Assembly: GCA_951813015.1 (NCBI GenBank)
Contig: CATOTG010000005.1
Span: 1-49,058 of the forward strand
Source of the DNA: an uncultured Thermoanaerobaculia bacterium
GTDB taxonomy: Bacteria > Acidobacteriota > Thermoanaerobaculia > Multivoradales > Multivoraceae
Length of the DNA stretch: 49,058 nucleotides
Reading direction: 5' to 3'
The position numbers were made by a program, and so were the translations under genes. A model generated the notes under the pieces. That model ran no database searches. It saw nothing but the letters and a program-made list of their open reading frames with translations, and had not been told where the DNA came from. This document shows, one piece after another, positions 4,157 to 46,657 of this stretch; within the stretch, counting starts at the first letter, position 1; every line of letters starts with the position of its first letter.

Positions 4157-4209
4157 ACCCGAGCCTCAGAGCATTGAGGATCTCGACCCGGAACGGACCG
4201 GGAGCATGG

Positions 4210-4755: not shown

Positions 4756-4762
4756 CGCTCCC

Positions 4763-6816: not shown

Positions 6817-6839
6817 ACTCTGCATCCGCTCCGCCGGCG

Positions 6840-6917
6840 CCGGGACTGCACCACATGGTGTTTGAGCTCGTCGACAACGCGGTCGACGAGGCGCAGGCGG
6901 GTTTCTGCGACCAGGTA
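6840..6917 (+). pseudogene. gyrB: Orphan fragment of gyrB (ATPase domain)
   Basis: The bases between the oxidoreductase and the S4 gene encode, in one frame, [20 protein letters not shown] followed by GFCDQV. This matches the highly conserved N-terminal ATP-binding segment of DNA gyrase subunit B ([20 protein letters not shown] in Escherichia coli). The asparagine and acidic residues that bind Mg-ATP are kept. There is no start, and the similarity stops at both ends after about 26 codons. It is therefore a scar of duplication or rearrangement, not a working gene. Confidence 0.8.
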
Positions 6918-6948
6918 GCGGGAGGAGGGCCTGCTCTGGCAGACGCTG

Positions 6949-7314
6949 TCAGCGCAGGCGGTCGATCTGCCGACGGTCGCGCTTGGTCGGCCGACCGGCG
7001 CCGCGACGCCGATGGGCGGGTACCACAACGGCCTGAGCGTCGCGACGCGGCGGTTCGGGCTTCGGCGGGCTCAGATCCTCGTAGAGCCGCGGCGCCTCGG
7101 CCTTCGGCAACGACCGCTCGCGCAGTTCGCGAACGATGAGGATCCGCTGCCAGTCGCGGATTCGAAACTCGATCCGATCGCCGACCCGGACCTGGCGCTG
7201 CGCCTTCGCCTGCTGGCCGTTGACCGTGACCCGGCCGGCGGCGCAGGCCGCCGACGCCTTGGAACGCGCCCGGAACATCCGCGACACCTGCAACCACTTG
7301 TCGAGGCGGTTCAA
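6949..7314 (-). CDS. S4-domain RNA-binding protein (Hsp15-like)
   Basis: A 121-residue basic protein. Residues 1-65 form an S4 RNA-binding fold: MNRLDKWLQVSRMFRARSKA, then GRVTVNGQQAKAQRQVRVGD. The tail is long, basic and proline-rich and ends RGAGRPTKRDRRQIDRLR, a form I recognise from S4 proteins related to the heat-shock protein Hsp15, which binds free 50S subunits carrying nascent chains. It lies 13 bases downstream of lpdA and is probably carried on the pyruvate dehydrogenase transcript, although the functions are unrelated. Family confident; exact RNA target unknown. Confidence 0.85.
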   Translation of the reverse strand: MNRLDKWLQVSRMFRARSKASAACAAGRVTVNGQQAKAQRQVRVGDRIEFRIRDWQRILIVRELRERSLPKAEAPRLYEDLSPPKPEPPRRDAQAVVVPAHRRRGAGRPTKRDRRQIDRLR

Positions 7315-7327
7315 CCGAAGCCCCGTC

Positions 7328-27608: not shown

Positions 27609-28850
<1,242 letters not shown>

Positions 28851-28860
28851 GACGGTCCGC

Positions 28861-28882
28861 AGGCTACAGCACGGGGTAGCAT
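28861..28882. promoter_or_regulatory. Back-to-back TANNNT boxes between ispG and the envelope operon
   Basis: In the 40-base divergent gap, TAGCCT on the minus strand (28866-28861) lies 10 bases before ispG and TAGCAT on the plus strand (28877-28882) lies 8 bases before the ATG at 28891. Neither gene has a Shine-Dalgarno sequence, which fits leaderless transcripts from two closely packed promoters. A short inverted repeat GCTAC/GTAGC sits between them. Confidence 0.4.
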
Positions 28883-28890
28883 CACCGCCC

Positions 28891-31884
28891 ATGTCCACGC
28901 GCCAGCGGCCAGGCTTAAGCGAGCCGCAACGGCCCCTTGCAACTGGCCTGGCGACGATCGCGGGGCTTTCGAGCCTGGCCTTCGCGCAACCCGTGTACGA
29001 CCTTCTCCGCCGTACGCCGGAGTTCTTCGCCATCCGCGACCTCTCGCTCGGCGACCTGCTGGCGCTCGTCGTTCTGCTGGCGGTCGTTCCGACGCTGGCG
29101 CTCGGAGCACCGACGCTCCTGATGCGGCTGGTCCGCCGCAGGTGGACGACGGCGGCGACCGCAGCCGCGGCCGGCCTCCTGACCGCGATCATCGGCCTGC
29201 AGGCGCTTCACGACCTGCCCGCGGCCGCAGCCGTCCTCGGCGCGGTCCTCGCCGGCGCGGCCGCCGGCTGGGCCTATCTCCGCTACCCGGGAGTTCGCAC
29301 CTTTGGCCTGCTCCTGTCCGCGGCCGCGGTGATCGTCCCGGCACTGCTGCTGGCCGACCCCCGCATCCGGCAGAGCGCCGCCTTCGCGAGCCGCGAAGTC
29401 GCGGTGGCCGAAACCGACACCGGCGCCCGAGCGCCGATCGTGCTGGTCATCTTCGACGAGTGGTCGCTGACCTCGATCCTGGACCGGACGGGCGCGATCG
29501 ACCGCCAGCGCTTTCCCAACCTGGCCGGACTTGCCGACCGCGCCGCCTGGTACCCGAACGCAACGGCGGCCGCGGACGTTTCCGAACTCGCGGTGCCGTC
29601 GATGCTGACCGGCGCCGAGGTCCACCAGGGCCAGCTCCCGACCGTCGCCGAGCACCCGATCAACCTGTTCACCCTGCTGGCCGCGAGCCACGACCTCCAC
29701 GTGGCCGAACCGATCACCTCGTTGTGCCCGCCCCAACTCAACCTGCTCGCCGCGCCGCGGCCCCCCGCAAGCGAACGCCTCGGCCTCCTGGTCCTGGACC
29801 TTTCGCTCGTCTGGCAGCGCCTCACCCTGCCGACGCCCTGGAGAGACCGGCTGCCGGAGGTGACGCGGACCTGGAGCGGCTTCGGCCGCGACGGAGCGCG
29901 GACGGCCGTGCCGCCGCCGACCGATCAGCCGGTTGCGCGCGCCCTGTTCCACCTCGGCCAAACGGACCGGGCGGCCGAGTTCCGCCGCTTCGTTCAGTCG
30001 ATCGAAACTCCCGGGGAACGACCGAGCCTCCACTTCCTCCACTCCCTGCTGCCCCACGCCCCCTGGGAGTACCTGCCCTCCGGCCGGCGCTACGAGACTC
30101 CCTTCGGCAGAGTCCATGGACTCGCACGCGAGAGGTGGAGCGAGGATCACTGGCCCGCGCTGCATCACCACAAGCGCTACCTGTTGCAGGTCGAGTTCCT
30201 GGACCGCCTGATCGGCGAACTTGTGGCCCGACTGGAGTCGACCGGCCGCTTCGACCGGAGCCTGATCGTGATCACGGCGGACCACGGAGTCGCCTTCCGA
30301 CCCGGCAGGTCCCGCCGCCTGCTGGAGCTCACCGAGCTCGAAAGCGGCCAACCGCTCGACCTGGCCAGCGTGCCGCTGCTGATCAAGAGGCCGTTCCAGC
30401 GGCAACCCGAAGTCGATCGATCACCGATCTCTCTCGCCGGACTGACTCCCCTGATCCTCGAACTGGCCGGCGCCGGGCAGGACTCGGCGCCACTGCCGGA
30501 GACGGAATCAGCGCCGCCGGTCATGGTCGGCAAGTACGCAGGCGGAGTCGAGATCACCACCGGCCGCGAGCCATGGCGGCAAGGCCGGATCGCCAACCAG
30601 GCGCGACTGCTGGGCGCGTCGAACGACCCGATGGCGATCGGCCTCCGTCCGCAGCTCCATGGGCGCCCCGCAACCGACTTCAGGATCCGGGACAGCGAGT
30701 CGACCATCGAGTTCAACGACGCCTGGGCCTGGGACCACGTAACCCCCGAACTGGCGGAAGTCCCGGCGCTGGTCGAGGGCATCTTCGACCGTCGGCGCCT
30801 TCCGGACAACCGCAACGTCGCCGTCGCGCTGAACGGCGTGATCGCCGCCACCGTCGAGGCTCACGTCGGTCACGACGAAAGCCTGCGCATCGCGGCCATG
30901 TTGCCGGAAGCCGGACTCCGCGCCGGTCTGAACCGGGTCGACGCGTTTCTGGTCGACGACGCCGGCGACGACATCGCGCTGGAGCATCTCCGCCGGCCCC
31001 CGTGCCCGGTCTACTCCATTGCCCGCGGCGAGGGAGGCCGGGGCGACGCGGTGATCCGTCACTCCAGGAGCGCTCTCGACAACTCAACCGACCGGTTCCG
31101 GATCGTGCGGCCCGACCCGGCAGGTCTGTTCGGCAACCTGGACGGCCAGGTCGAGAGCGGGTCCACCGTGCAGGGCTGGGCCTTCGACCGAAGCGGGTCG
31201 GGCGATGTCGAGCACGTCGTCGGCTTCCTGGCTGGACACCAGTTCGGGGTGACCACGGTCGGCGCGCGCCGTTCGGACGTGGCCGCTCGCTACGGCAGCG
31301 AACATGCGGACAGCGGCTTCCTGCTCCGCCCGCCGACCAGCGCCGCCGACCGCAGGAGCTACGGCGCGGGCGAAACCCTGGCCGAAGCGCTCCGCCGGGA
31401 GGGCGTCGTCGCCTACGCGTTGTCGAGCCAGGGCACGGCTGCCCGACTTCGTTTCGCCTACCTGCCGATCGTGCGGGGACGACGCGGCCGCGAGGAGCTG
31501 CCGATCGCCGATGGCCGACGGCTCACCGTGCAATTGCCCGGCGACGGCTTCGGCGGCGCTCTCGAGCGGGTTGCGCCCAGGGACGGCGCCACCATCGTCG
31601 AAGGCTGGGCGGCGGACCTGGAGCGCGGGGAAAGACCCCGGCAGATCGTCGTTTACCGCGACGGCGAGTTCCTGGTCAGCCTCGGGGCCAACCAGCAACG
31701 GCCCGACATCGCAGCGGCGCATGGCGATGAGCGCCTGCTCCGCACCGGCTTCCGAGGCACGGTTCCCGGGGCCCCGGAGCCGGCGATATTCTCAGGCCGA
31801 CACAGGGTGTTCGCAGTGATGCTGAGGGGCGCCGCCGTCGAGTTGCCGGTCCGCCCGCCGGAAGGCCCGGCCGTCCAGCAGTAG
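28891..31884 (+). CDS. Membrane AlkP-superfamily transferase-like protein with double C-terminal GWAxD module
   Basis: 997 residues. About four to five N-terminal helices (residues 18-155) anchor an extracytoplasmic alkaline-phosphatase/sulfatase-fold domain (180-560). Metal residues are seen in VLVIFDEW (Asp189-Glu190) and [12 protein letters not shown] (Asp464-His465), and a conserved His in [13 protein letters not shown]. At the place of the sulfatase Cys is Ser231 in [11 protein letters not shown], so it is not a formylglycine enzyme. A beta-rich segment follows (625-690; [16 protein letters not shown]). Two related modules close it: 746-862 (VQGWAFD) and 873-986 ([22 protein letters not shown]). 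Inferred role: transfer or removal of a phospho- or sulfo-group on an envelope glycan or lipid. It is first of three genes packed without gaps that share the end modules. Confidence 0.75.
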
Positions 31885-34800
31885 ATGCGCGCCGTGGAAG
31901 ACCGACGGGAGAGAGAACCACTCGCTGCGACCCACGAGGCGGGGCGTTTCATACCTGCCGCGCACGTCTTCGGCCTGTGGGCGTTCGCTGTCGCGCAGCC
32001 AATCCTCGACCTTGTGGGCAGGGAACCGGACTTTCTGGTCGCCCATCGTCTCCACGGCGCGTCACTCGCGATCCTCGCGCTGGGGTTGTCGCTTGGCATG
32101 CCAGCGCTTCTTGCAGCGCCTCTCGTTGTTCCCACGATCCACGGCAGCCGAATCGGGCGCTCTTACGCCGACGGACTCCGGACGCTGCTCGCTGCGGCGT
32201 TCTTCGTGCAAGTGCTGGATCTGCCACTCCTGGCGACCCTGCCCGCCGCCGTCCTGGCCATGGCGTTGGTCGGCGCTCTCTGTTCGACCCTTGCTCTCCA
32301 CCGCTGGCAAGGCCTGTCCAACCTGCTCGCCGCAACCGCGCTCGCCGCCCTCATCGCTCCAGTTGTCTTCCTGCTGCGACCCGGCGTTCGCGGCCTCCTG
32401 CCTCCAGCAGACGAGCTTGAACCCCCCACAGAGATCCTTCAGGCGCCGAAGTTCAAGAGCGACCTTCCCGTCGTCCTGATCGTCTTCGACGAACTACCGA
32501 CAAGTTCGCTTCAACGTCCGGATGGTGCGCTCAACGCAGAACGCTTCCCTTCGTTCGCCGCACTCGCCGCGGAATCCGACTGGTACCGCCACGCCGCCAC
32601 CACCGGTTTACAGACTACAAAGGCAGTTCCCGCGCTGCTAACGGGCCAGTTGCCGCGGCCCGCGTCTAGGGCCTCCTACCGTGACCATCCCGCCAATCTC
32701 TTCTCGTGGCTGGCAACTAGCGGCAGTTATCGGATCGTGGCCCAGCAGACGGTTTCTCAGCTCTGCCCTCCAGCCGTGTGCACGAGCTCGGGCGACCGAA
32801 ACCGTTGGCAAGACCTCTCGGCCGCAATCGACGACCTCACGGTGGTCTACGGTCATCTTCTGCTGCCATCGGCTCTCCGAAGTCGCCTGCCCGACGTGAG
32901 CCGTCAATGGACCGGTTTCCGTGAACGCAGCGCCAGTCGAGACGCCCCCGCAGACCGTTTGGCCGCCCCGGGCCCCCTGCACCAGGAGGTGCCTGGTCTG
33001 GTCGACGACTTCCTGCGCCGAATCGGACGGGAAGGCGACGAAGAGCCGACCTTCTACTACCTGCACCTGAACATCCCGCACCGCCCCTGGAAGTACCTGC
33101 CCTCGGGACGCGAGTACACGCCGGCCGGCACGGAGGCCCTGCCTCCCGGTGTCGGAGGCGGCCAACTGCTCGAAGAGCGAAAGGCCTTTAGCGCGTGGCA
33201 ACGACACCTGCTGCAGGTGGGCTACGCGGACCTCGTCCTGGGCCAACTACTGGACCGGATGAGAGCCGTAGCGATCTACGACCGGGCTCTGATCGTGGTC
33301 ACGGCCGATCACGGTCACTCCTTCCGGCCCGGACAGCCGAACCGCGCCGCCACCGTGGGAAACGCCGAGGATGTACTCGAGGTTCCCCTGTTCGTGAAAC
33401 GCCCGGGTCAAAGAGACGGCGCCGTGTACGACCACGGGGCGCAGACGATCGACATTGTGCCCACGGTCGCCGCGGCAATCGGCTCTCCCCCACCCTGGCG
33501 TGTCGATGGCAAGGAGTTGAACGACACCTCTCAGCGGACGATCACCGTCTGCTGCTACCAGGACGGCGACGCGGTGCGAACCTTCCGCCCCGACCCCGAG
33601 CGCCGGCAGCAAACTCTCGATCGGCTGGAGCAACTGTTCGGTTCGTTCTCGAATGCCTGCAACAGATCCGATGCGCAGGCGACCACGGGTGAGGACCTCC
33701 TCAACGCCAGTTCACTCGCGCCCCAACTGGACGACCCGTTCGATGGCGTGTTCGCGGCCGGCCCGCGGCCGGATCTCGTGGATTGTCCAGCAGCCGAACT
33801 GTCCGGGGCCAACGCGGAGGGCGGAGCTGCCGAACCTCGACGCGCCATCCTCGACGCGCCGGATGCGTTCGCTAACGTTAGGCCTGACAGCGGTTTCGTA
33901 CCAGGTCTCGTAAGCGGGCGCATTGAGCCGAACGCACGCGACGGAACGCAACTGGCCGTCGCCGTCGACGGGTTCGTGCGCGCCACCACCTGGACCTTCA
34001 CTCACCGGAGCGCGACGCGTTTCTCCGCGCTGGTTCACGAACGGTGGCTGCCCGCAGGCAGCCACCGAATCGACGTGTACGCGATCGAAGGCAGTCGGAA
34101 GGCGCCGGACGAGTCCCGGCACACGATCCTCAGACCGTTGCATCGGGATGCTCAATCTCCCCGTTTGGTGCTGGCAGGCCACAGAGTGAGCGGCCTGGAG
34201 CTCCCCGGCGAAGGAATGCTCCAGAGCGTTGACCACCTGTTTCGGGCGGACGTCGAGCTGGTGAGCGGAGGCATCAGAGGGCACTTGACCTACGAACGCG
34301 ACGGACGGCCCTCCGCTGTGGACGAGTTCTTCCTCTTCGACGGCGCCGACCTCCTCTACCGAGGCGAGGACGATCGCAACCGTCGCCGCATCGCCCGCCA
34401 CGAGGACGGGCAGGAACAGACGACGTTCGGCATTTTCCTGCCCAAAGCCGTGCGCGAACGAAGTGCATCGCTACGCCTGCTGGCAAGGAAGGGCAATCAG
34501 GTCCAGGAACTACCCTTGTCCGCCCGCCCCCCGGGGAGATTCGAGTTGTCCTGGGACGACCGAGGCCGGGTGGACGCGCTGCTGCGGTACCCCAACGACG
34601 ACGACGAGCCGGTGCGGATTCCCGTACCATCGAGCCCCGCCGGGCTGACTGGCAGCCTGGCCTCGAGGGCCGGCATGACAACAAGCGTCTCCGGCTGGGC
34701 CGCCGACCTCGCCAATCCCGGAGGAGCCCAGGAAGTGGTCGCCTTCCTCCAGGGTCGTCAGCTCTGGATCGGCCGAACCGCCCTCGAACGTCCGGACGTC

Positions 34801-35379
34801 GCCTCGCGCCACGGCCCGGAACATCTCTACAGCGGTTTCCGCTTTTCGAACGGGCCGCCTTCCACACTGCAGACCGCCGAGCTCGATGCGGTTCGGCGGG
34901 AGGGCATCGTCGTCTACGCCGTCTCCCGCCGCGGAGTCGCGGCCCGGATCCCCTTTTCCTACATGCCCATCGAGCCAGATCGACGTCGGGCCGAGATCCT
35001 CCCGACCACCGATGGTCGCCGGTTGAGCGTGACACCACCCGGCGACGGTTTCGACGGTGCGGTCGACCTCATTTCGCGCAAGGGAAACCGCACGGTCATC
35101 CAGGGCTGGGCGGGCGATCTCGACCAGGGACAGCGACCACGCCAGATCGTGATTTACCGAGACAACGAGTTCCTGACTCAACTGGGCGCCAACCACGAGC
35201 GGTCCGACGTCGCCGAGCAGTACGGAGACTCCCGATTGCTGCGTACCGGTTTCCGCGGGTCGGTGCCGGGAGCACCTGATCCCGACACGTTCGCCGACCG
35301 GCACCGCGTGTTCGCAGTCATGCTTCGCGGGGGCGCCGTCGAGTTGCCCTACCTCTCACAGCCGGTTCGGCCCCCATGA
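31885..35379 (+). CDS. Second membrane AlkP-superfamily transferase-like protein with the same C-terminal module
   Basis: 1164 residues, paralogous to the upstream protein; the ATG directly abuts its TAG. Helices occupy about residues 25-165. The catalytic domain shows VVLIVFDELPTSS (Asp202-Glu203), TTKAVPALLTG with Thr244 at the nucleophile position, HLNIPHRPWKYLPSG, and VTADHGHSFRPG (Asp475-His476). Thr at this place is the arrangement of phosphoethanolamine and phosphoglycerol transferases. A beta-rich part (about 670-900; AVAVDGFVRATTWTF) is longer than in the first protein. The double module follows (about 915-1155), with GWAADLANPGG and GWAGDLDQGQRPRQIVIYRD. The two enzymes may act on successive or alternative groups. 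It overlaps the next gene by 4 bases. Confidence 0.75.
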   Translation: MRAVEDRREREPLAATHEAGRFIPAAHVFGLWAFAVAQPILDLVGREPDFLVAHRLHGASLAILALGLSLGMPALLAAPLVVPTIHGSRIGRSYADGLRTLLAAAFFVQVLDLPLLATLPAAVLAMALVGALCSTLALHRWQGLSNLLAATALAALIAPVVFLLRPGVRGLLPPADELEPPTEILQAPKFKSDLPVVLIVFDELPTSSLQRPDGALNAERFPSFAALAAESDWYRHAATTGLQTTKAVPALLTGQLPRPASRASYRDHPANLFSWLATSGSYRIVAQQTVSQLCPPAVCTSSGDRNRWQDLSAAIDDLTVVYGHLLLPSALRSRLPDVSRQWTGFRERSASRDAPADRLAAPGPLHQEVPGLVDDFLRRIGREGDEEPTFYYLHLNIPHRPWKYLPSGREYTPAGTEALPPGVGGGQLLEERKAFSAWQRHLLQVGYADLVLGQLLDRMRAVAIYDRALIVVTADHGHSFRPGQPNRAATVGNAEDVLEVPLFVKRPGQRDGAVYDHGAQTIDIVPTVAAAIGSPPPWRVDGKELNDTSQRTITVCCYQDGDAVRTFRPDPERRQQTLDRLEQLFGSFSNACNRSDAQATTGEDLLNASSLAPQLDDPFDGVFAAGPRPDLVDCPAAELSGANAEGGAAEPRRAILDAPDAFANVRPDSGFVPGLVSGRIEPNARDGTQLAVAVDGFVRATTWTFTHRSATRFSALVHERWLPAGSHRIDVYAIEGSRKAPDESRHTILRPLHRDAQSPRLVLAGHRVSGLELPGEGMLQSVDHLFRADVELVSGGIRGHLTYERDGRPSAVDEFFLFDGADLLYRGEDDRNRRRIARHEDGQEQTTFGIFLPKAVRERSASLRLLARKGNQVQELPLSARPPGRFELSWDDRGRVDALLRYPNDDDEPVRIPVPSSPAGLTGSLASRAGMTTSVSGWAADLANPGGAQEVVAFLQGRQLWIGRTALERPDVASRHGPEHLYSGFRFSNGPPSTLQTAELDAVRREGIVVYAVSRRGVAARIPFSYMPIEPDRRRAEILPTTDGRRLSVTPPGDGFDGAVDLISRKGNRTVIQGWAGDLDQGQRPRQIVIYRDNEFLTQLGANHERSDVAEQYGDSRLLRTGFRGSVPGAPDPDTFADRHRVFAVMLRGGAVELPYLSQPVRPP

Positions 35380-37925
35380 ACACTGTGGCGACCGAGCCCG
35401 ACGAAGACTCTGCGCCGCCGGGGGGCCCAGCCCGACAGCAGCGTCTGCTCGGAGCCATCTCCTGGACCGCCTTCGCCATCTTTGGCGCGTGGTTCGCCGC
35501 CCGCCTGATCCCCAACCTCGTGCTGCGGCTGCAGTTCGAAGACCAGCTGATCGTTCTCCGGTACGCGCGCAACCTCGCGGAGGGCAACGGTCTGGTCTAC
35601 AACGTCAGCGAGCGGGTCATGGGCTTCACCACGCCCCTGTTCACCGTGCTGAGCAGCGTCTTCGTCGTCCTCGGCGGCGATCAGGCCGCGGCCTGGCAGA
35701 ACGGGTTCGGCCTGCTCTGCATGCTGGGCACGGCTGCCCTCGCCGCCAGACTGCTGGTCCGCCTCGGCGCCGGGCCCGCCGCGCCTCTGGCGGTCGCCCT
35801 GGTCACGTTCAATCCCGCCGTCGCCTACAACTACCTCTACCTGGGGATGGAGATCCATCTCTTCGCCCTGCTCTTCCTCCTGGCGCTCGACCTCCACCTG
35901 AGCGATCGCGCCACGGCCGCCGCGGTCACATCCGCGCTGCTGTTCCTGACCCGACCGGAGGGCGCACTGCTCGCGGCCATGCTGATCGCTCATCGCTGGC
36001 TGCGCGAACGCAAACCACCCCTGCGTCAGGCGGTGGCGGCACTCGCTGTGGCGCTGCCATGGCTCCTCGTCTCACTTGGTTACTACGGCGGTGTCCTGCC
36101 GAAGACGCTGGGCGCAAAGGAGGGCGAGAGCATCGTTTCCGCGTGGCGGTATCTGGATCTGGTGCGAGAAGCCTACGTCGAAGCCGGAAGCAGCCTGCTG
36201 GCGGCCTACAGCCCCTCCCTGGCGGGCTCGGTCGCCGGGCCGCTGCTCCTCTCCGGGCTTCTGTTGGCCGGCGCCGCCGCGCTGTTGCGCCGCCGTCCGG
36301 ACCTCTGGCCGCTGATCGCGTTCCCGCTCGGCGCTCTCCTCGGCTACGCCGCGATCGGCTCGCTGCCGGGATACACGTGGCACTACTACTCTCTGAACAT
36401 CCTCTGCGCATTCCTGCTCGCACTGGGTGTTCATGCCGGTCTCGTCGGGGCGGGCCGGCTCTGCCTGAAGGCGGTGGAGAATCTCCCTGCCGCCATCCGC
36501 GCAGTCCTGAAGCGCCCACTCGCTCCCGCGCTGCTAACAGCAACGGCGGTACTCGCACTCACCCTGCCCGTGCTGCGCAACACGTCGCAGCAGATCGCAT
36601 ACCGGGCCGAACCAACGGACCGCCAGCAAGGTCTCGAGAACATCGGACGATGGCTCGCCGAGCGCTACGACCCGAGCACGTCCGTTCTCGTCCGCGAAAT
36701 CGGCCACGTCGGCTGGGTCAGCGGCCTGCGCATCGTCGACCGCGGCGGCCTGGTCACGCCCGGCCTGCGCCATGACGTTCCGCGCCGCGTCGCCACGGAA
36801 CGCTTCCTGCCGGACCTGCTGCTCCTGCGAGCGGACAACTACGGCGTCCGGGATCCGCGCGAAGGTCCCGGCTTCCCGTCGAACCTCGGCTACGAACAGG
36901 TGGAGAACTTCGACCACGGCGAAGAGTGGAGTCTCCATGCGTTGATCGACGGCGATTCGGCAAGCCCGCGAGAAGACGGTCCGTACCGGTACGAGGTTGC
37001 CAGAGGCCCGACCGGCGCCCTCGAGACCCTGCTTCGCCACAACGTCGGGCAGGGGGAATCGGAGCAGCCCGGCCGAATTCCGATCGTCCCGCCTCCAGCC
37101 GGCTTCGACGGCGCGCTCGATGCCGTGCTGCCGCGACCCGGCCCCGAGGGGGCTGAGGAGGCCGGGAGGGCCGGGAGGGCCGAGGGCGCCGGGGGCGCCG
37201 GGGGCGCAGCCGAGTTCCTGGTCAGCGGCTTCATCCGCGACGAGCCGCCGGATCCCCGCGGAGTCGAAGCGATCATCCTCTTCATTGGCGGCGAGATGAC
37301 CGTCCACCAGCCCGGCGCCCACCGCAGGCCCGATCTCGGCGCCCTCTACGGGCCGTCGTTCGAGAGTGGCGGCTTCGCCTTCCGGAGCTCGGCCGCTCGA
37401 GCTCTGGTAGAGCGCGAAGGTGTCGTCGCCTACGCCGTGTCGCGGCGCGGCGTCGCCAGCCGCCTGCGCTTTTCCTACCTCCCTCTCGACGCGGCGCCCG
37501 GCAATCTCGAGGTCATGCCGACCAGCGACGGCCGCCGCCTGCCCGTGCGTCGGACCGGCGACGGCTACGAAGGAGGACTGTCCCTGGTCACGTCGAGGAA
37601 CGGGCTGCAGGTCGAAGGCTGGGCGGTCGACACAAAGCGAGGTGAACGTCCACGCCAGATCGTCCTCTACCGGGACGGCCACTTCCTGGCCAACATGGGA
37701 CTCACCCAGAAGCGGCCCGACATTGCAGAGCGTTTCGGGGATCCGGGTCTCCTGCGCGTCGGCTTCCGGGGAGCGGTTCCCGGCGAGACGGACGCCGCTG
37801 CCTTCAACGAGCGCTGCCGCGTGTTCGCCGTCATGCTGCGCGGCGCCGCCGTGGAGCTCTTCCGGGCGCCCAGGAACGCCGAAGGGAGTTCTCCGCGACG
37901 AAGGCCCGGCAGGCGGCCGTGGTGA
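35376..37925 (+). CDS. GT-C type membrane glycosyltransferase-like protein with the same C-terminal module
   Basis: 849 residues. The N-terminal 400 residues hold about ten helices. The first outer loop carries LQFEDQLIVLRYARNLAEGN then GLVYNVSERVMGFTTPL, the pattern of polyprenyl-phosphate-sugar-dependent GT-C enzymes, with the acidic pair ED as catalytic candidate. A soluble domain follows (EIGHVGWVSGLRIVDRGGLV). After a Gly/Ala/Glu-rich stretch (EGAEEAGRAGRAEGAGGAGG) come two modules: a divergent first one (FLVSGFIRDEPPD) and a well-kept second one ([33 protein letters not shown]). It probably adds a sugar to an envelope glycan at the outer face of the inner membrane, on the same target as the two upstream enzymes. 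Its ATG overlaps the upstream stop. Confidence 0.75.
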   Translation: MNTVATEPDEDSAPPGGPARQQRLLGAISWTAFAIFGAWFAARLIPNLVLRLQFEDQLIVLRYARNLAEGNGLVYNVSERVMGFTTPLFTVLSSVFVVLGGDQAAAWQNGFGLLCMLGTAALAARLLVRLGAGPAAPLAVALVTFNPAVAYNYLYLGMEIHLFALLFLLALDLHLSDRATAAAVTSALLFLTRPEGALLAAMLIAHRWLRERKPPLRQAVAALAVALPWLLVSLGYYGGVLPKTLGAKEGESIVSAWRYLDLVREAYVEAGSSLLAAYSPSLAGSVAGPLLLSGLLLAGAAALLRRRPDLWPLIAFPLGALLGYAAIGSLPGYTWHYYSLNILCAFLLALGVHAGLVGAGRLCLKAVENLPAAIRAVLKRPLAPALLTATAVLALTLPVLRNTSQQIAYRAEPTDRQQGLENIGRWLAERYDPSTSVLVREIGHVGWVSGLRIVDRGGLVTPGLRHDVPRRVATERFLPDLLLLRADNYGVRDPREGPGFPSNLGYEQVENFDHGEEWSLHALIDGDSASPREDGPYRYEVARGPTGALETLLRHNVGQGESEQPGRIPIVPPPAGFDGALDAVLPRPGPEGAEEAGRAGRAEGAGGAGGAAEFLVSGFIRDEPPDPRGVEAIILFIGGEMTVHQPGAHRRPDLGALYGPSFESGGFAFRSSAARALVEREGVVAYAVSRRGVASRLRFSYLPLDAAPGNLEVMPTSDGRRLPVRRTGDGYEGGLSLVTSRNGLQVEGWAVDTKRGERPRQIVLYRDGHFLANMGLTQKRPDIAERFGDPGLLRVGFRGAVPGETDAAAFNERCRVFAVMLRGAAVELFRAPRNAEGSSPRRRPGRRPW

Positions 37926-38171
37926 CGTGGAAGCCACGGCGTCCTCGCCACGCACGTTGAGGCAGGTGTCCGGCTGGCCGGCGAACGAGGCCTCCGGCAG
38001 ATCCTCCGAGTGAACGCGGGACGGGCCGCTCAGCCGCCTCCGGCCAGCGCCTTCGTCAACCTGCAGAGGGGGCGCGGGCAAGCCGGCATCGCCGCCGAGG
38101 CGAGAGTCGACGCCGGGCGCCTTGTCCCCATCCGCGCTAATCTCCGTGCAATCCCTCCAAAGGAGATCGTC

Positions 38172-40043
38172 ATGCCCCAGATTGCCTCACTCCTCGCAGC
38201 CGTCGCCGTCCTCTCGCTTGCGTTCCTCGGCTGCTCCACCGGCGGCGACGACGACGGCGGCGGCGACGCTGTCCTCGCCGGCGGCGCCGCGCCGAACCCG
38301 GACAGGGACGCCTACTTCGGCGACCTGCACGTCCACACTCGTTTCTCCTTTGACGCCTACCTGTTCGGGACGCGCACGAATCCCGACGACGCCTACCGGT
38401 TCGCCAAGGGCGAGGCGATCGAGCACGCGAGCGGCCACCAGATTCAGCTCCAGAGCGGGGCGCTCGACTTCCAGGCGGTCACCGACCACGGCTTCTACCT
38501 CGGCTTCCTGCCCGCGATGGATACGCCGGGCAACGCCCTGTACGAGTCCGACATCGGCACGGAGCTGCGCGAACTCGGCTCCAACGGCGGCTTCCAGAGG
38601 GCGATTCAGGCGATGGGCACGGGCGAGTTCGCCGCGTTGCCCGAGGACGCCCGGAACGACGCGATCCAGACCGCCTGGCAGGCGATCATCGAGGCCGCCG
38701 AGGCCCACAACGACCCTGGCAACTTCACCACCTTCATCGGCTACGAGTACACCTCGTCCTCGGACGACCGCGGCAATCTGCACCGCAACGTGATCTTCAA
38801 GGGCAGCGAAGCGCCGATGAAACCCTTCGCCCGGACCGACTCCCGCGACCCGGAGGACCTCTGGCGCTGGCTCGACGACCTGCGCGATCAGGGGATCGAA
38901 GGCCTCGCCATCCCCCACAACTCGAACGGCAGCAACGGTCAGATGTTCCGGCTCGAGACCTTCAGCGGTGAACCGCTCACCGCCGAGTACGCCGACCTGA
39001 GGATGCGCAACGAGCCCCTGGTCGAGATGACCCAGGTCAAGGGCACGTCGGAGACCCACCCCTTGCTGTCGCCGAACGACGAGTGGGCCGACTTCGAGAT
39101 CTTCCCCTACCGCATCGCCACGCAGCTCTACAGCGAGCCGAAGGGCAGCTACGTCCGCGAGGCCTACGTGAACGGCCTCATGCTCCAGGAGGCCCAGGGC
39201 TTCAACCCGTTCCGCTTCGGCATGGTGGGCGCCACCGACACCCACAACTCGGGCGGCACGCCGGAGGAACACAACTTCCACGGCAAGGTCGGCCGGGTCG
39301 ACGGCACCGGCCAGGGCCGCGGCTCGGTGCCGCTCGACGAACCGACCGAGGACGGAGAACGGTACGCTCAGAACGCGTTCGAGTACTGGGGCGGTTCCGG
39401 GCTCGCCGGCGTGTGGGCGGAGGAGAACACCCGCGACGCGATCTACGACGCCTTCCGGCGCAAGGAGACCTTCGCCACCAGCGGCCCGAGGCTGCGGGTT
39501 CGGTTCTTCGCCGGCTACCACTACACCGACGACCTGACCTTGGACCCCGAGATGATCGCCGCCGCCTACGACGGGGGCGTGCCGATGGGCGGCGACCTGG
39601 TGGCGGACGAGGGCAGGAGCCCCCGCTTCCTCGTCTGGGCGGCGCGGGACGCCGACAGCGCCCCGCTCCAGCGCCTGCAGATGGTCAAGGGCTGGGTCGA
39701 GGACGGCGAGGCGCGCGAACAGGTGGTCGACATCGCCTGTGCGGATGGCGGCATGCCGTCAGGCGATCCCCTGCGCTGCCCCGACAACGGCGCCAGCGTC
39801 GATCTGTCCGACTGCAGCTACACCCAGGACCTGGGCGCCGCCGAACTCTCCGCCCTGTGGACCGATCCGGACTTCGACGCCGCGAAGCACGCCGTCTACT
39901 ACGTCCGCGCGCTGGAGAACCCGACCTGCCGCTGGTCGACCTGGGACGCGCTGCGTGCCGGCGTCGAGCCGAATCCCGACATGCCGCCGACCATCCAGGA
40001 GCGCGCCTGGTCGTCGCCGATCTGGTACGTACCGGGCGGGTAG
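38172..40043 (+). CDS. DUF3604 lipoprotein (PHP-like metal-dependent hydrolase fold)
   Basis: 623 residues. The signal peptide ends in lipobox AFLGC followed by a Gly/Asp-rich spacer, so it is membrane-anchored. The DUF3604 core shows PHP-type metal ligands: YFGDLHVHTRFSFDAYLFG near residue 50, AVTDHGFYLGF, IPHNSNGSNGQMF and GATDTHNSGG. The C-terminal 130 residues have conserved cysteines (DIACADGG, LRCPDNGA, SDCSY, NPTCRWST), likely disulfides outside the cytoplasm. AAGGAG lies 7 bases before the ATG. It is followed by a close paralogue and begins a run of exported proteins to 46657. The substrate is unknown; phosphoester hydrolysis is the general expectation for PHP folds. Confidence 0.88.
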   Translation: MPQIASLLAAVAVLSLAFLGCSTGGDDDGGGDAVLAGGAAPNPDRDAYFGDLHVHTRFSFDAYLFGTRTNPDDAYRFAKGEAIEHASGHQIQLQSGALDFQAVTDHGFYLGFLPAMDTPGNALYESDIGTELRELGSNGGFQRAIQAMGTGEFAALPEDARNDAIQTAWQAIIEAAEAHNDPGNFTTFIGYEYTSSSDDRGNLHRNVIFKGSEAPMKPFARTDSRDPEDLWRWLDDLRDQGIEGLAIPHNSNGSNGQMFRLETFSGEPLTAEYADLRMRNEPLVEMTQVKGTSETHPLLSPNDEWADFEIFPYRIATQLYSEPKGSYVREAYVNGLMLQEAQGFNPFRFGMVGATDTHNSGGTPEEHNFHGKVGRVDGTGQGRGSVPLDEPTEDGERYAQNAFEYWGGSGLAGVWAEENTRDAIYDAFRRKETFATSGPRLRVRFFAGYHYTDDLTLDPEMIAAAYDGGVPMGGDLVADEGRSPRFLVWAARDADSAPLQRLQMVKGWVEDGEAREQVVDIACADGGMPSGDPLRCPDNGASVDLSDCSYTQDLGAAELSALWTDPDFDAAKHAVYYVRALENPTCRWSTWDALRAGVEPNPDMPPTIQERAWSSPIWYVPGG

Positions 40044-40078: not shown

Positions 40079-41893
40079 GTGCGCCGGCCGCCAGGCCTGC
40101 TCTGCTGCGTTGTCCTGGTCCCGGGCGTCCTCGCAGCCGCGGAGACCACGGCCCCGCCCAACCCCCTCCGTGACGCCTACTTCGGCGATCTCCACGTCCA
40201 CACGCGGTACTCCATCGACGCCTACCTGTTCGGCGTCCGCACCGATCCGGACCACGCCTACCGGTTCGCGCGAGGAGAAGCGATCGAGCATCCGAGCGGC
40301 TTTCGCCTCCAGCTTCAAACCGGCCCGCTCGACTTCCTGGCAGTGACCGATCACGGCGCCTTTCTCCACGAGATGCCGGCCACCTACGACCCGGAGAACT
40401 CGTTCTTCGCCGCGATGGGTCCGGGCGGCAACCGGGCGAACGCGCCGGTCGCCGCCGACACAGGCGACGGGCGCAACGCCTGGCAGGCCACGATCGAAGC
40501 CGCCGAGCGCCACAACGACCCGGGCAGCTTCACCACCTTCATCGCCTACGAGTACACCGCGTTCTCGGAAGGCCGGGGCAATCTGCACCGCAACGTGATC
40601 TTCAAGGGCAACGAAGCGCCTTCGCAGCCGTTCACGGCCGACGACTCGAACAACCCCGAGGATCTCTGGCAGTGGCTGGACGCCCGCCGCGACGAGGGCT
40701 TCGAGGCGCTCGCGATTCCCCACAACTCGAACGGCAGCAACGGCCAGATGTTCCGGCTCGAGCGCGCGGACGGCCGGGACTTCGACGCCGCCTACGCCGC
40801 GCAGCGCAACCGCAACGAGCCCCTGGTCGAGATCACCCAAGGCAAGGGCACGTCGGATACCCATCCGCTGCTGTCGCCGAACGACGAGTGGGCCGACTTC
40901 GAGATCTACGCCTTCCGCATCGGCACAACGCTCCCGAGCCAGGCGCCCGGGAGCTATGTCCGCGAGGCCTACCTGAACGGCCTGGTGCTCCAGGAAACCC
41001 GCGGTTTCAACCCCTTCCGCTTCGGCCTGATCGGCGCGACCGACTCCCACAACGCGGGCGGCACGACGGGGGAGTCCAACTTCCACGGCAACTTCGGCGC
41101 CGGCGACGGCGCCGCCGTGCGGCGGGGTTCCGTGCCGCTTGAGGCCGGGAACCCGTCCGGCCGGAAGTACAGCCAGACCAACAACCGCTACTACAGCGGC
41201 GCCGGGCTGACGGGAGTCTGGGCCGAGCAGAACACCCGCGACTCGATCTACGACGCGCTGCGGCGCAGGGAGACCTTCGCCACCACCGGGCCGCGCGTCC
41301 GCGTCCGGTTCTTCGCCGGCTACGACTATCCGGACGGCCTCGCGTCCGACCTGGAGATGATCGAGAAGGCCTACGCTGGCGGCGTGCCGATGGGCGGGGA
41401 CCTGCTCGCCTCCGCCGGCAAGAGTCCCCGCTTCCTGGTCTGGGCCTCTCGCGACAAGGACAGCGCGCCGCTTCAACGCCTTCAGGTGGTCAAGGGCTGG
41501 GTCGAGGACGGCGAGGCAAACGAACAGATCGTCGACCTCGCCTGCGCGAACGGCGACGCGCCGTCGGGGCGCCCACCCCGCTGTCCGGACAGCGGCGCCG
41601 CCGTCGACCTGTCGGACTGCAGCTTCCCCCGGAACGCGGGCGCCGCCGAGCTCTCGGCCCTGTGGCGGGACCCCGACTTCGACCCGGCTCAGCGAGCCGT
41701 CTACTACGTCCGGGCGCTGGAGAACCCGACCTGCCGCTGGTCCACCTGGGACGCCCTGCGGGCCGGCGTCGAACCACGGCCGGACCTGCCGGCGACACTC
41801 CAGGAGCGGGCCTGGTCGTCGCCGATCTGGTACGTGCCCGGCGAACAGCCATCGCCAGACTCGCAGGATCACAGTCAGAGAGGAGCTCGATGA
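40079..41893 (+). CDS. Second DUF3604 protein, secreted paralogue
   Basis: About 604 residues, a tandem duplicate of the previous gene. It keeps all metal-site motifs (YFGDLHVHTRYSIDAYLFG, AVTDHGAF, IPHNSNGSNGQMF, GATDSHNAGG) and the C-terminal cysteines (DLACANGD, PRCPDSGA, SDCSF). It differs in export signal: with GTG 40079 it starts MRRPPGLLCCVVLVPGVLAA, a signal peptide without lipobox, so it may be periplasmic rather than lipid-anchored. A TTG at 40049 is an alternative start; neither has a good ribosome site. The 3' end overlaps the next ATG (ATGA), with GAGAGGAG just before it. Paralogues with different anchoring suggest a division of labour. Confidence 0.87.
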   Translation: MRRPPGLLCCVVLVPGVLAAAETTAPPNPLRDAYFGDLHVHTRYSIDAYLFGVRTDPDHAYRFARGEAIEHPSGFRLQLQTGPLDFLAVTDHGAFLHEMPATYDPENSFFAAMGPGGNRANAPVAADTGDGRNAWQATIEAAERHNDPGSFTTFIAYEYTAFSEGRGNLHRNVIFKGNEAPSQPFTADDSNNPEDLWQWLDARRDEGFEALAIPHNSNGSNGQMFRLERADGRDFDAAYAAQRNRNEPLVEITQGKGTSDTHPLLSPNDEWADFEIYAFRIGTTLPSQAPGSYVREAYLNGLVLQETRGFNPFRFGLIGATDSHNAGGTTGESNFHGNFGAGDGAAVRRGSVPLEAGNPSGRKYSQTNNRYYSGAGLTGVWAEQNTRDSIYDALRRRETFATTGPRVRVRFFAGYDYPDGLASDLEMIEKAYAGGVPMGGDLLASAGKSPRFLVWASRDKDSAPLQRLQVVKGWVEDGEANEQIVDLACANGDAPSGRPPRCPDSGAAVDLSDCSFPRNAGAAELSALWRDPDFDPAQRAVYYVRALENPTCRWSTWDALRAGVEPRPDLPATLQERAWSSPIWYVPGEQPSPDSQDHSQRGAR

Positions 41894-43148: not shown

Positions 43149-44879
43149 ATGTCCGAAGTTCGACCGAGACGTGAGGGGGGCAGCCCCGGCGTGAGCCGAC
43201 CGTTCCTGCGGCGGATGCTGATCGGCCTGTGCGGCATCGCTCTCGCCACGGCGCCGATTGCCGCCCGGTCGATCGTCCTGGACGCGATGCAGGCGGAACT
43301 CGATCGTTCGATGGAGTTGCTCGGGGAACAGGAGGAGCGACCGTACTTCCTGAGCTACGAGATCACGGAGATGCACAGGGTCGGGGTTACCGGTCAATTC
43401 GGCGCCCTGTCCTCGAGCAACGAGAGTCGCCAGCGCCTCCTCGACCTGGACCTCCGGGTAGGCGACTACAGCCTCGACAACACCCGGCCGATTCGAGACG
43501 ATTTCTTTTCGTCCGCCTTCCGGGGCTTCGGCCCCGTTTCGATTCCCGTCGACGACGACCCCGACGCGATCCGGAGCATTCTCTGGGCCGAGACGGACAA
43601 GACCTACAAGAGCGCCTTGCAGCAACTCACCCAGGTCAAGACCAACGTGCAAGTGAAGGTCGAGACCGAAGATCAGTCCGACGACTTCTCGCGCGAGGTC
43701 GCATCCAGGGCCAGCGACGAACCCCGGCCGATCAGGATGGAGCGCACCGACTGGGAGCAGAAGGTCCGGCGTTACTCGGCGCCTTTCGCTGAACACGGCG
43801 AGTTCCTGCAAGGCTCGGCCTCGTTGCGCGCCGGGACGGAGACCCGCTGGTTCGTGAATAGCGACGGTTCAAGGATCCAGACCTCCGAAACCCGCTACCG
43901 GCTCTTCATCGCGGCCGCCACGAAGGCGGACGACGGCATGGAACTGCCGCTCCACAAAAGCTACGACTCCTTCACTCACGATGGGCTTCCGGACGACGAG
44001 ACCGTGGAGCGCGACGTCCGGAGGATGATCGAGATCCTGCTGGCGCTGCGCGAGGCGCCCCTCGTGGAGCCCTACACCGGCCCGGCCATTCTCTCCGGCA
44101 AGGCGAGCGGCGTGTTCTTCCACGAAGTCCTGGGCCACCGCCTCGAGGGACACCGCCTGAAGGAAGTCGACGACAGCCACACCTTCCGGGAACAGTTGAA
44201 CCAGAGAGTCCTGCCGGAGACGTTCTCGGTCCATTTCGATCCGACAGTCCGAACCTGGGGCCCCTCCGATCTGGTCGGCAGCTACCGCTACGACAACCAG
44301 GGCGTAGCGGCTCGGCGCGTGACCGCGATCGACAAGGGGATCCTCAAGAGCTACCTCATGTCCCGCACTCCGGTCGAGGGGTTCCCGAAATCGAACGGCC
44401 ACGGTCGCAAGCAGGCCGGACTCAAGCCGGTGGCAAGGCAGTCCAACCTGATCGTCGAGGTATCCGATCCCCTGACGACAGAGGAACTCGACGCCCGCTT
44501 CTTCGAGGCCATCGAGGCCGCCGGCAAATCGTTCGGACTCCGCATCGAGGAGATCGAGGGTGGTTTCACCTTCACCGGACGCGCCATTCCGAACTCGTTC
44601 AACGTTTCACCGCTTCTCGTCTACCGCGTCTACCCCGACGGCCGGCAAGAACTGGTCCGGGGCGTGGACCTGATCGGCACGCCGCTGGTGACCTTCAGCC
44701 GCGTCGTCGCGGCGGACGACCAGATCGGGGTCTTCAACGGCTTCTGCGGCGCCGAGTCGGGCAGCGTGCCGGTTTCGGCCGCGGCGCCCTCGATTCTCGT
44801 GTCCCAGATCGAGGTACAGAAGAAGCCGAGGTCCCAGGATCGACCGCCCCTGCTCCCGGCGCCCGCAGGAGACCTCTGA
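43149..44879 (+). CDS. Exported TldD-like metalloprotease
   Basis: 576 residues. The TldD/PmbA family degrades or matures peptides in an internal chamber formed with its partner. The zinc motif is in GVFFHEVLGHRLEGHRL (HExxxH with a following Glu), near residues 322-338. Further family features are VAARRVTAIDKGILKSYLMS and a C-terminal GVDLIGTPLVTFSRV. In contrast to cytosolic TldD, it has an N-terminal signal-like segment (RRMLIGLCGIALATAPIAARS, about residues 20-41), with an RPFLRR stretch before it, so it is probably exported. GGGGAGG precedes the ATG. It is followed by its probable partner with overlapping stop and start (TGATG). The role in the periplasm is unknown. Confidence 0.85.
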   Translation: MSEVRPRREGGSPGVSRPFLRRMLIGLCGIALATAPIAARSIVLDAMQAELDRSMELLGEQEERPYFLSYEITEMHRVGVTGQFGALSSSNESRQRLLDLDLRVGDYSLDNTRPIRDDFFSSAFRGFGPVSIPVDDDPDAIRSILWAETDKTYKSALQQLTQVKTNVQVKVETEDQSDDFSREVASRASDEPRPIRMERTDWEQKVRRYSAPFAEHGEFLQGSASLRAGTETRWFVNSDGSRIQTSETRYRLFIAAATKADDGMELPLHKSYDSFTHDGLPDDETVERDVRRMIEILLALREAPLVEPYTGPAILSGKASGVFFHEVLGHRLEGHRLKEVDDSHTFREQLNQRVLPETFSVHFDPTVRTWGPSDLVGSYRYDNQGVAARRVTAIDKGILKSYLMSRTPVEGFPKSNGHGRKQAGLKPVARQSNLIVEVSDPLTTEELDARFFEAIEAAGKSFGLRIEEIEGGFTFTGRAIPNSFNVSPLLVYRVYPDGRQELVRGVDLIGTPLVTFSRVVAADDQIGVFNGFCGAESGSVPVSAAAPSILVSQIEVQKKPRSQDRPPLLPAPAGDL

Positions 44880-46657
44880 TGATGGACGGCCCGAAGATGA
44901 ATCGCGGAACAACCTGGTTCAAGCGATCCCTGCTGCCCGCGTTGGCGTTCGTGCTGCTCGCCCCTCTCTCGGGCGCCGGCGCGCAGGAGGATCCCGAACT
45001 CAACGTGCTGATGCAGGCCCTGCGCGACGAACTGGCGCGCAGCACGGAGGAGCTCGAGATGGAAGGGCTGGAACGGCCCTACTTCATCGCGTACACGGTG
45101 CGCGAGATCGAACGGATCGAGGCAAGCGCCAGCTTCGGGGCTCTGCTGTCCAGCACGGAGAACAAGAGCCGGCGCCTCGCCGTGGAGGTGCGCGTCGGCG
45201 ACCCGACGTTCGACAACACGAACTTCGGCAGCATGTCGTTCTTCCGGAACAGCTTCGGTCCCGGCGGCTTCCTGCCCCTGGAGAACGACTACCGGGAGAT
45301 CCGGCGGCAGATCTGGCTCTCGACCGACGCCGCCTACAAGTCCGCGCTGGAAACGCTGGCGGAGCGGCGCGCCGCCCTGCAGAACGAGACGCGCGCTGAA
45401 GACATCGCCGACTTCACGCCCGAGGAGCCCTTTTCCTTCTACGGCGACGCGGGACCGGACCTCCCGCCGCGGTCCGCACTCGCCGACCTGGTCCGTGGAC
45501 TGTCCGGGCAGTTCAGGAACATGCCCGACATCTTCGAGTCGAAAGTCGTCGCCACCGTCCGCCATCGGCGTACGTACTACCTGAACAGCGAAGGTTCCGC
45601 CTTCATCCGTTCCGATCCGATCGCCTCGGTCGTCATCGAGGCGCATACCCAGGCCTCTGACGGCGCCGAGCTGGACGATTCAGTCGCGACATACGGCAGC
45701 TCCGGGGCCGAAGTCGATGACCGGCCGGCACTGGCAGCCCAGGTCGAGGCCATCGGCGGCAGCCTGGCGGCCCGAAAGTCCGCGCCGCCGCTTGACCGCT
45801 ACAACGGGCCCGTGCTCTTCGAAGGCCAGGCGGCGGCCGAACTGTTCGGCCAGGTGTTCATGCCAAAGCTGCTCGGAACCAGGGTCCCGGATGCCGAACC
45901 ACGGTTCGCGAGGATGCTGCAACGTGAGCGAAACCCGTTTCTCGATCGGATCGGGGCGAGGGTCCTGCCGAGATCCCTGTCGGTTCAGGACGACCCGACG
46001 CTCGACGCGGACGGTTTCCTGGGGGGCTATGCCGTCGACGACGACGCCGTCGAAGCCGGGCCGACGGTTCTCGTCGAGAACGGGATCCTGCGAACGCTCC
46101 TGACCACGCGGAATCCGGTCCCGGGCGTCGACAGGAGCACCGGGAATCGCCGCGGCGAGGGTCCGCTGCCAAGTAACGTGCTGCTCACCTCCAGCCGGCC
46201 GATGACCCGCGACGCGCTCAAGGCAGAGTTCATCCAACTCATCGAAGAGCGGGGCGCCGGCTACGGCATCGTCGTGCGCCGCATGGCCGGGCTGGGGTCC
46301 ACGTTCTCCTTCATGAGGTCTGGCCCCGGGACGGCGCCCACCGTCGGCAGCCTGATCGGTGTCTTCAAGGTACTTCCGGACGGAACGGAGGAACTGATCC
46401 CCAAGGCGGAACTGGCCGGCGTCGGCGAAGCTGCTTTCAGGGACATCGTCGAAGTGTCGGACAAGGCGACGCTGTACAGCCTGCCTCAGTCGCCCGGAAG
46501 CGGCAGTCTGCCGTCGTTCGTGCGCGCCGCACTCTCGACGGCCAGCATCGTGTCCGTGTCGGTACCCGATCTCCTGTTCGAGGAACTGAGCCTGCGCAAG
46601 CCGTCCGGGAACGCACCCCACCTGCCGGTGGCGAGACACCCGTACTTCGACGAATAG
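44879..46657 (+). CDS. Exported TldE/PmbA-like partner subunit
   Basis: 592 residues with signal peptide KRSLLPALAFVLLAPLSGAG. It aligns with the upstream protein over its length (ERPYFIAYTVREIERIEASA against ERPYFLSYEITEMHRVGVTG) and has the family tail ending in SVSVPDLLFEELSLRK. The zinc motif is absent: LFEGQAAAELFGQVFMPKLL stands where HExxxH would be. This is the normal asymmetry of the TldD (catalytic) / TldE (non-catalytic) pair. The start overlaps the tldD-like stop, so equal production is likely. Both subunits carry export signals, which argues for a working pair outside the cytoplasm. Confidence 0.85.
   Translation: MMDGPKMNRGTTWFKRSLLPALAFVLLAPLSGAGAQEDPELNVLMQALRDELARSTEELEMEGLERPYFIAYTVREIERIEASASFGALLSSTENKSRRLAVEVRVGDPTFDNTNFGSMSFFRNSFGPGGFLPLENDYREIRRQIWLSTDAAYKSALETLAERRAALQNETRAEDIADFTPEEPFSFYGDAGPDLPPRSALADLVRGLSGQFRNMPDIFESKVVATVRHRRTYYLNSEGSAFIRSDPIASVVIEAHTQASDGAELDDSVATYGSSGAEVDDRPALAAQVEAIGGSLAARKSAPPLDRYNGPVLFEGQAAAELFGQVFMPKLLGTRVPDAEPRFARMLQRERNPFLDRIGARVLPRSLSVQDDPTLDADGFLGGYAVDDDAVEAGPTVLVENGILRTLLTTRNPVPGVDRSTGNRRGEGPLPSNVLLTSSRPMTRDALKAEFIQLIEERGAGYGIVVRRMAGLGSTFSFMRSGPGTAPTVGSLIGVFKVLPDGTEELIPKAELAGVGEAAFRDIVEVSDKATLYSLPQSPGSGSLPSFVRAALSTASIVSVSVPDLLFEELSLRKPSGNAPHLPVARHPYFDE

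Follow-up and report, generated by a model that had tools for sequence, protein, structure and literature searches.

A C-terminal double module common to two AlkP-superfamily proteins and a GT-C glycosyltransferase-like protein at a variable locus of a Thermoanaerobaculia bacterium

This study concerns three adjacent genes, designated A, B and C, and the pair of C-terminal modules that their products have in common. The genes lie in a stretch of DNA from an uncultured Thermoanaerobaculia bacterium (contig CATOTG010000005.1). This stretch, the window, is one entire contig of 49,058 bases from a genome of 4.32 Mb. A and B encode proteins of the alkaline phosphatase (AlkP) superfamily and C encodes a membrane glycosyltransferase-like protein of the GT-C type. 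All three proteins end in the same two modules, M1 and then the distal M2 (Table 1).

Genes A, B and C and their common modules

The three genes are on the same strand and are tightly packed, as a preliminary description of this DNA had stated (junctions of 0-4 bases). The stop codon of A (TAG, 31882-31884) is followed directly by the ATG of B at 31885, a junction of 0 bases, and the stop codon of B overlaps the start codon of C by 4 bases as ATGA at 35376. The ATG of A is about 40 bases from the closest ATG of the divergent ispG gene, at which the start of ispG was set. A consensus scan of 28500-38400 found no sigma-70-type promoter, though such a scan says little for Acidobacteriota.

The C-terminal regions were compared by self-BLAST. 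A702-990 and B881-1164 were 48% identical (E 9e-73), A708-985 and C539-828 were 42% identical (E 2e-50), and B883-1154 and C536-828 were 39.5% identical (E 1.6e-54), a likeness among the three tails well above chance level. The profiles of M1 and M2 are also related to each other (hhalign probability 97.8, E 9.5e-13, in a one-target comparison). Both points, the same double module on all three proteins and the kinship of its halves, had been put forward in the preliminary description. The motifs listed there are present with small exceptions, namely the variant REGIVVYAVSRRGVA and, in the module of C, GGF where SGF stands at the equivalent position, GRRLPVRRTGDG with T for P, and another motif with C for H.

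Structure prediction for the module gave a model with a predicted local distance difference test score (pLDDT) of 87.3 and a predicted template modelling score (pTM) of 0.82. The top rows of a Foldseek search with this model were immunoglobulin (Ig)-type chains, and the fold matches include adhesin domains. M1-M2 is confidently predicted to form tandem beta-sandwiches that are Ig-like only in a general sense. The module part had no sequence match to any Pfam, NCBIfam or PDB family, apart from one FlgD_ig match below cut-off at B 840-891 (E 0.044) that lies mostly upstream of the module, and this ruled out its assignment to a known family of those collections. Absence from the fold lists is not the same as a new fold.

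The catalytic cores preceding the modules are of two kinds. A and B matched Pfam Sulfatase (PF00884) with 58.4 and 58.5 bits, respectively, against a cut-off of 25, in agreement with their earlier placement in the AlkP superfamily. In A the hydrophobic segments fall within residues 45-159, and in B within residues 58-172. Profiles of both proteins matched choline sulfatase, phosphonate monoester hydrolase and LtaS of solved structure, chiefly near the DHG motif. Alignments were hand-picked from the hits listed, with 37 rows for A (A3) and 27 rows for B (A4). In A, D189, E190, S/T231, H389, D464 and H465 were conserved in 37/37 rows, with 27 Ser and 10 Thr in the nucleophile column. In B, D202, E203, T244, H399, D475 and H476 were conserved in 27/27 rows, with Thr as nucleophile throughout. 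We take these columns, by motif and recall, to be the nucleophile and metal ligands. Type I (formylglycine) sulfatases carry a C/S-x-P/A-x-R motif at the nucleophile. The motif C-x-P/A-x-R was not found in A or B, and no R stands at +4 from S/T231 or T244. Because the formylglycine motif is missing, A and B were ruled out as sulfatases proper, and we infer that they are phospho-type enzymes, either hydrolases or transferases.

C had no Pfam match at E<=1. A profile built from alignment A1, with 53 rows hand-picked from the hits listed, matched AftB of known structure (E 8.8e-9), and the AlphaFold model of C (pLDDT 85.5) matched AftB and ArnT. As predicted, C has a GT-C fold closest to these two enzymes, which agrees with the earlier reading of C. 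In AftB, D62 is catalytic and R221 and R372 are essential, according to PMC12041299. In the profile alignment D62 corresponds to D56 of C and R221 to R193, while R372 was not placed. D56 was kept in 50/50 rows that reach the column (3/53 were gapped) and R193 in 53/53.

Table 1. Positions of genes A, B and C, their modules and the genes flanking the locus.
Feature	Position	Strand	Description	Basis
gene A	28891..31884	+	AlkP-superfamily, 997 amino acids; N-terminal hydrophobic segments, C-terminal double module	Pfam Sulfatase, 9.6e-16
gene A module M1	31009..31497	+	residues 707-869	boundaries by motif; predicted structure
gene A module M2	31498..31848	+	residues 870-986	boundaries by motif; predicted structure; cross-enzyme conservation
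gene B	31885..35379	+	AlkP-superfamily, 1164 amino acids; N-terminal hydrophobic segments, C-terminal double module	Pfam Sulfatase, 8.9e-16
gene B module M1	34537..34998	+	residues 885-1038	boundaries by motif; self-BLAST
gene B module M2	34999..35349	+	residues 1039-1155	boundaries by motif; self-BLAST
gene C	35376..37925	+	GT-C membrane glycosyltransferase-like, 849 amino acids; AftB/ArnT-like core, C-terminal double module	
gene C module M1	36987..37514	+	residues 538-713	boundaries by motif; predicted strands, full-length C model
gene C module M2	37515..37862	+	residues 714-829	boundaries by motif; predicted strands, full-length C model
ispG (gcpE)	27609..28850	-	divergent; left edge of variable locus	Pfam GcpE, 5.6e-106
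DUF3604 gene	38010..40043	+	right edge of locus here	Pfam DUF3604, 8.6e-223

Distribution of the double module and variation of the locus

The module of A was searched against 5.8 billion proteins at E<=1e-3. Candidates had to be 0.55-1.75 times as long as A, and only 7,984 were scored. The search gave 194 hits, and every one of the 120 listed was of the AlkP or C type: 114 had PF00884, 5 were C-type proteins that the search with C also found, and the remaining one (P0105) was part of a B-type protein, with 51.5% identity to B 617-1155. Among named genome records, 14 loci had A-like matches. In 13/14 the record titles name uncultured Thermoanaerobaculia, Holophagales, Vicinamibacteraceae or Acidobacteria/Acidobacteriota, all of which we take to be Acidobacteriota by established taxonomy; the 14th was a weak hit in Nakamurella. 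A search of the order found matches in 27/72 genomes, including all 21 of the genus in this set. An even sample of the phylum gave 25/396, 14 of them within the genus; this search was less sensitive, with at most 6 candidates scored per genome listed, compared with as many as 33 for the order.

The 21/21 genomes of the genus contained 60 double-module matches, 56 of them in frame with a core, which was AlkP in 42 and GT-C in 14. The AlkP carriers comprised 35 A-like and 7 B proteins, and the GT-C carriers 12 C-type proteins and 2 of a more distant type. The other four were remnants: a 268-residue B-like protein, a C tail on its own, a GT-C broken across frames and a 61-residue tail at a contig end. 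Thus within the genus the double module is attached near-exclusively to AlkP and GT-C cores, and the link is not random; a module common to unrelated catalytic cores had been anticipated from the window. The third, more distant GT-C type with a double module lies at another locus (L036, L038 and L070, in genomes G051, G059 and G049). The search match of the L038 and L070 copies spans one TGA, and the L036 copy is in two frames.

Sorting or export tags, too, typically appear as one C-terminal domain present on otherwise unrelated proteins, and substrates of type IX secretion have an Ig-like C-terminal domain. We consider it very improbable that the double module is such a tag. Sorting tags are found on many families, whereas in the genus, remnants apart, two kinds of enzyme carry the module, and the carriers have N-terminal hydrophobic segments.

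Outside the genus all 20 places from the order and phylum searches were examined, with 21 proteins. Thirteen were AlkP proteins by Pfam, three (at L043, L045 and L051) looked AlkP-like by sequence, two were methyltransferases, two had no Pfam family, and one had DUF4214 with a below-cut-off Rce1-like match. The preliminary description had allowed that the module might turn out to be a common, randomly distributed domain. In the event, strong matches to the double module go with AlkP and GT-C proteins. Weaker relatives with a single module also occur on methyltransferases, an M15 peptidase and a DUF4214 protein, which makes the single module a wider superfamily; in the phylum sample most of its carriers are AlkP proteins. 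One locus outside the genus (L056, genome G013) has a convergent AlkP pair with GWAxD modules, at 1680-4724 (+) and 4727-7642 (-), with 2 bases between their ends.

Three distant relatives (L039-L041) have a weaker double-module match, and the carrier is an AlkP protein in all three. Because of this the AlkP lineage may have been the first to have the double module, though the branches of the tree are long.

Within the genus A was found in 21/21 genomes, B in 7 (with a remnant in G052 as well) and C in 11, at one site that is mostly beside ispG. C had its module in place in 9 of the 11, lacked it in G062 and was split in G045. A was the sole one of the three in 8/21 genomes (G044, G047, G053, G054, G056, G057, G060, G063), A+B occurred in two (G046, G061), A+C in five (G048, G050, G055, G059, G062) and intact A+B+C in 4/21 (G000, G049, G051, G058), with G045 and G052 as partial cases. 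The gene order was A-A-B-C in G051 and A-A-C-A-B-C in G058. The three-gene set is not fixed, and the earlier idea of a three-enzyme system is not supported in a fixed form.

This variation bears on a second explanation, in which the double module serves as a scaffold between proteins. It would bring A, B and C together in a membrane complex, or link each of them to some fourth protein there, and no glycan would be involved. Ig-like beta-sandwiches frequently bind proteins, the genes are adjacent and packed, and M2 is conserved in the three enzymes (see below), as a shared partner surface would be. In the 8 genomes with A alone, however, A keeps its module, so the partner there cannot be B or C. 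At L039-L041, too, the 16-17 kb of DNA retrieved gave no match to an A-, B- or C-like gene other than the AlkP carrier. We regard a scaffold as rather unlikely.

Other observations concern copies and neighbours of these genes. In G045 (contig C10) a C core at 457295-458782 and a module-bearing C tail at 406521-407408 are on the same strand; the gene appears to be split by ~50 kb, as if by a large insertion. Eight genomes have an extra A-like double-module protein elsewhere, on contig C11 in the source genome. AlkP paralogues ~38% identical to B, with no module detected, occur in six genomes (G054:C3, G056:C11, G060:C23, G044:C21, G047:C30, G048:C9), and those of G054, G056 and G060 lie ~8 kb from the phosphoribosyltransferase gene described below. 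ispG adjoins A in 18/20 other genomes; it is 6.8 kb off in one, and it was not seen in one whose contig starts inside A. A DUF3604 gene lies downstream in 14/20 other genomes, sometimes several kb further on, and was not seen within the fetched DNA in 6/20, partly since contigs end. DUF3604-like proteins are in tandem in the window (38010-40043 and about 40100-41893, the second judged from its translation alone), and a second DUF3604 match likewise follows the first in L007, L013 and L017. Two PmbA/TldD-like proteins are encoded by a packed pair at 43149-44879 and 44879-46657 of the window.

Conservation and ancestry of M1 and M2

Module identities were calculated as between-genome means over 50 modules. 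Across enzyme types M2 was 62.6% (A-B), 53.3% (A-C) and 53.6% (B-C) identical, and M1 38.6%, 31.7% and 33.1%, respectively. Within types the two modules differed less, with values for M2 versus M1 of 66.7 versus 50.0% (A-A), 63.4 versus 52.4% (B-B) and 62.9 versus 59.6% (C-C). Because M2 stays 53-63% identical across enzymes while M1 falls to 32-39%, these values point to the distal M2 as the common part, with a shared role.

Such a pattern is not needed by a spacer or stalk, that is, a double module that determines how far the catalytic domain stands from the membrane or takes up room in the periplasm, and has no specific ligand. A spacer does not call for identity of this level between AlkP and GT-C enzymes confined to the distal half, and conservation is highest at the end most distant from the core. 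This explanation seems improbable to us, although C cores free of the module exist (7/53 rows of A1, P0176, P0177, P0199-P0202 and P0204, plus L007) and adhesin domains are among the fold matches.

A tree of 58 whole double modules tracked enzyme type, with 6 changes of type against a minimum of 5 and 29.1 after shuffling. The one extra change was due to a row labelled A4 yet A-like, and B was weakly supported as a single group. Because the tree largely tracks enzyme type, the enzymes have mostly kept their own module copies since before the species split, and the sharing is old and has been maintained. Concerted evolution within genomes was ruled out as a general rule, as M2 was no more alike within than between genomes: 59.1% (n=9) versus 62.6% (n=147) for A-B, 50.9% (n=17) versus 53.3% (n=243) for A-C and 47.4% (n=4) versus 53.6% (n=56) for B-C. 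The best 90-base windows of M2 DNA gave no within-genome excess either (71.8 vs 72.6, n=41 vs 752). High local M2 identity was seen only among one group of close species, between genomes (over 90 bases, 93% for G046_A1 and G061_B1 and 92% for G044_A1 and G046_B1).

The halves gave different trees. An M1-only tree needed 4 changes of type, the least possible, and an M2-only tree needed 11, with starred branches forcing at least 3 changes for C and at least 2 for B. These trees are suggestive of M2 having been exchanged between genes as a cassette. Two results weigh against exchange. Five database C rows in this comparison came from the A-module search and were hence selected for A-likeness; without them M2 needs 8 changes and mixing is not forced. 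Approximately unbiased (AU) tests on M2 are compatible with a single clade for C (p 0.167) and with a single clade for B (p 0.183).

Among the 120 hits listed of the search with C, 80 had the module and 79 were comparable (P0174 was too short). M1 and M2 were both closest to a C row in 58/79. In 14/79 the best match of M1 was a C row and that of M2 an A row, and in 7/79 both modules were closest to A/B. This less selected count speaks for exchange of M2, whereas the lack of a within-genome excess of identity speaks against it. The M2 margin was at least 10 points in 7 of the 21 proteins whose M2 was closest to A or B (P0094, P0103, P0110, P0114, P0180, P0188, P0196), measured against a reference set of 27 A and 12 C rows that is biased toward A.

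Proposed function and known systems

Our preferred reading, offered tentatively as a possibility somewhat short of probable, is that the double module docks A, B and C on one shared envelope glycan, which C would glycosylate and A and B would modify at phosphoester groups. By analogy with the AftB and AlkP families all three enzymes would face the periplasm, where the predicted Ig-like M1-M2 pair would hold them on the same polymer. C would transfer a polyprenyl-phosphate-linked sugar, perhaps a pentofuranose, onto the glycan, and A and B would add or remove a phospho-substituent via the Ser/Thr nucleophile and bound metal; the expected active-site residues are conserved in all three (alignments A3, A4 and A1). 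Conservation of M2 between the types of enzyme leads us to propose it as the shared part that binds the acceptor, with M1 as an enzyme-specific adaptor. That the modules bind a common glycan is plausible in light of the Ig-like tail of ORF12 (see below). Since the gene set differs between species, decoration of the glycan would be expected to vary too. A broader proposal, a species-variable decoration site at which M2 recruits AlkP and GT-C enzymes to one polymer, swaps between genes and caps new cores, is possible but doubtful in our view.

A lipid-linked pentose donor for C is possible, and in a three-component pentofuranose addition system it would come from a polyprenyl-phosphate pentose synthase. 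A decaprenyl-phosphate phosphoribosyltransferase (NF008977) was above cut-off in 20/21 genomes of the genus, including the source genome, where its gene is on contig C1 beside a major facilitator superfamily (MFS) transporter and does not adjoin C. The enzyme also occurs in genomes without C and its gene is unlinked to C, which weakens the case for a pentose donor. DprE1/DprE2 were considered as neighbours of the phosphoribosyltransferase on the basis of fitting gene sizes, and were looked for in G062 only. The neighbours there proved to be a Leu/Ile/Val-binding-type protein, a protein without an NCBIfam match and an MFS transporter, and because of these identities an arabinose-specific donor was dropped. 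Two database proteins of 912-921 residues (P0210, P0222) combine an AftB-like GT-C with a sulfatase-like PF00884 domain on a single chain, a further hint that the two chemistries cooperate.

Periplasmic glycan decoration is usually interpreted one gene at a time. Here the enzymes of a variable set, which differ in chemistry and are of two unrelated kinds, are all tagged by one non-catalytic cassette. Should M2 prove to be the part that binds the acceptor, one binding experiment would name the substrate for the whole group of proteins annotated as 'sulfatase-like hydrolase/transferase', and bacteria would have a simple route to evolve new surface chemistry.

Membrane-anchored phosphotransferases of the AlkP superfamily include LtaS, OpgB, EptA and YejM. 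A and B resemble them in their N-terminal hydrophobic segments, AlkP domain, Ser/Thr nucleophile and metal-ligand columns. They differ from LtaS, YejM and phosphoglycerol transferase I in having the double module and in scoring only 9.6-13.6 bits against the NCBIfam models, whose cut-offs are 572-970 (for A, LtaS 11.8/970, YejM 13.1/825 and phosphoglycerol transferase I PRK12363 10.7/572). C likewise stands apart from AftB, with 31.6 bits against the equivalog NF041481 (cut-off 1050). A GWAxD-type single extracellular module follows an M15 peptidase as tandem repeats in Nakamurella (L020), and the M1 and M2 profiles align to the first repeat (hhalign 94.9 and 90.6%). This protein differs in its enzyme, in the length of the first repeat (105 residues) and in coming from an actinobacterium. 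The module of EmbC, another mycobacterial arabinosyltransferase, is lectin-like (PMC3044687).

A combination of AlkP, sulfatase or phosphoglycerol enzymes with GT-C enzymes and a shared Ig-like or carbohydrate-binding module was not found in the open-licence PubMed Central (PMC) literature. Close to C, by description, is ORF12 of Citrobacter youngae O1/O2, a GT-C ribofuranosyltransferase with a predicted Ig-like C-terminal domain on the same chain. According to PMC11127046, this tail binds the acceptor O-polysaccharide and is non-essential for ribosylation under the conditions tested. The module is absent from some relatives of C, and such module-free cores would fit a dispensable tail as in ORF12. 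Glycan binding has been demonstrated for the ORF12 tail and is predicted for the modules of A, B and C. ORF12 has one tail of 150 residues on one enzyme, whereas here a tandem pair is common to two AlkP enzymes as well. A GT-C enzyme with an Ig-like glycan-binding tail was already known; a tail that is shared with two AlkP enzymes is a new form of this arrangement.
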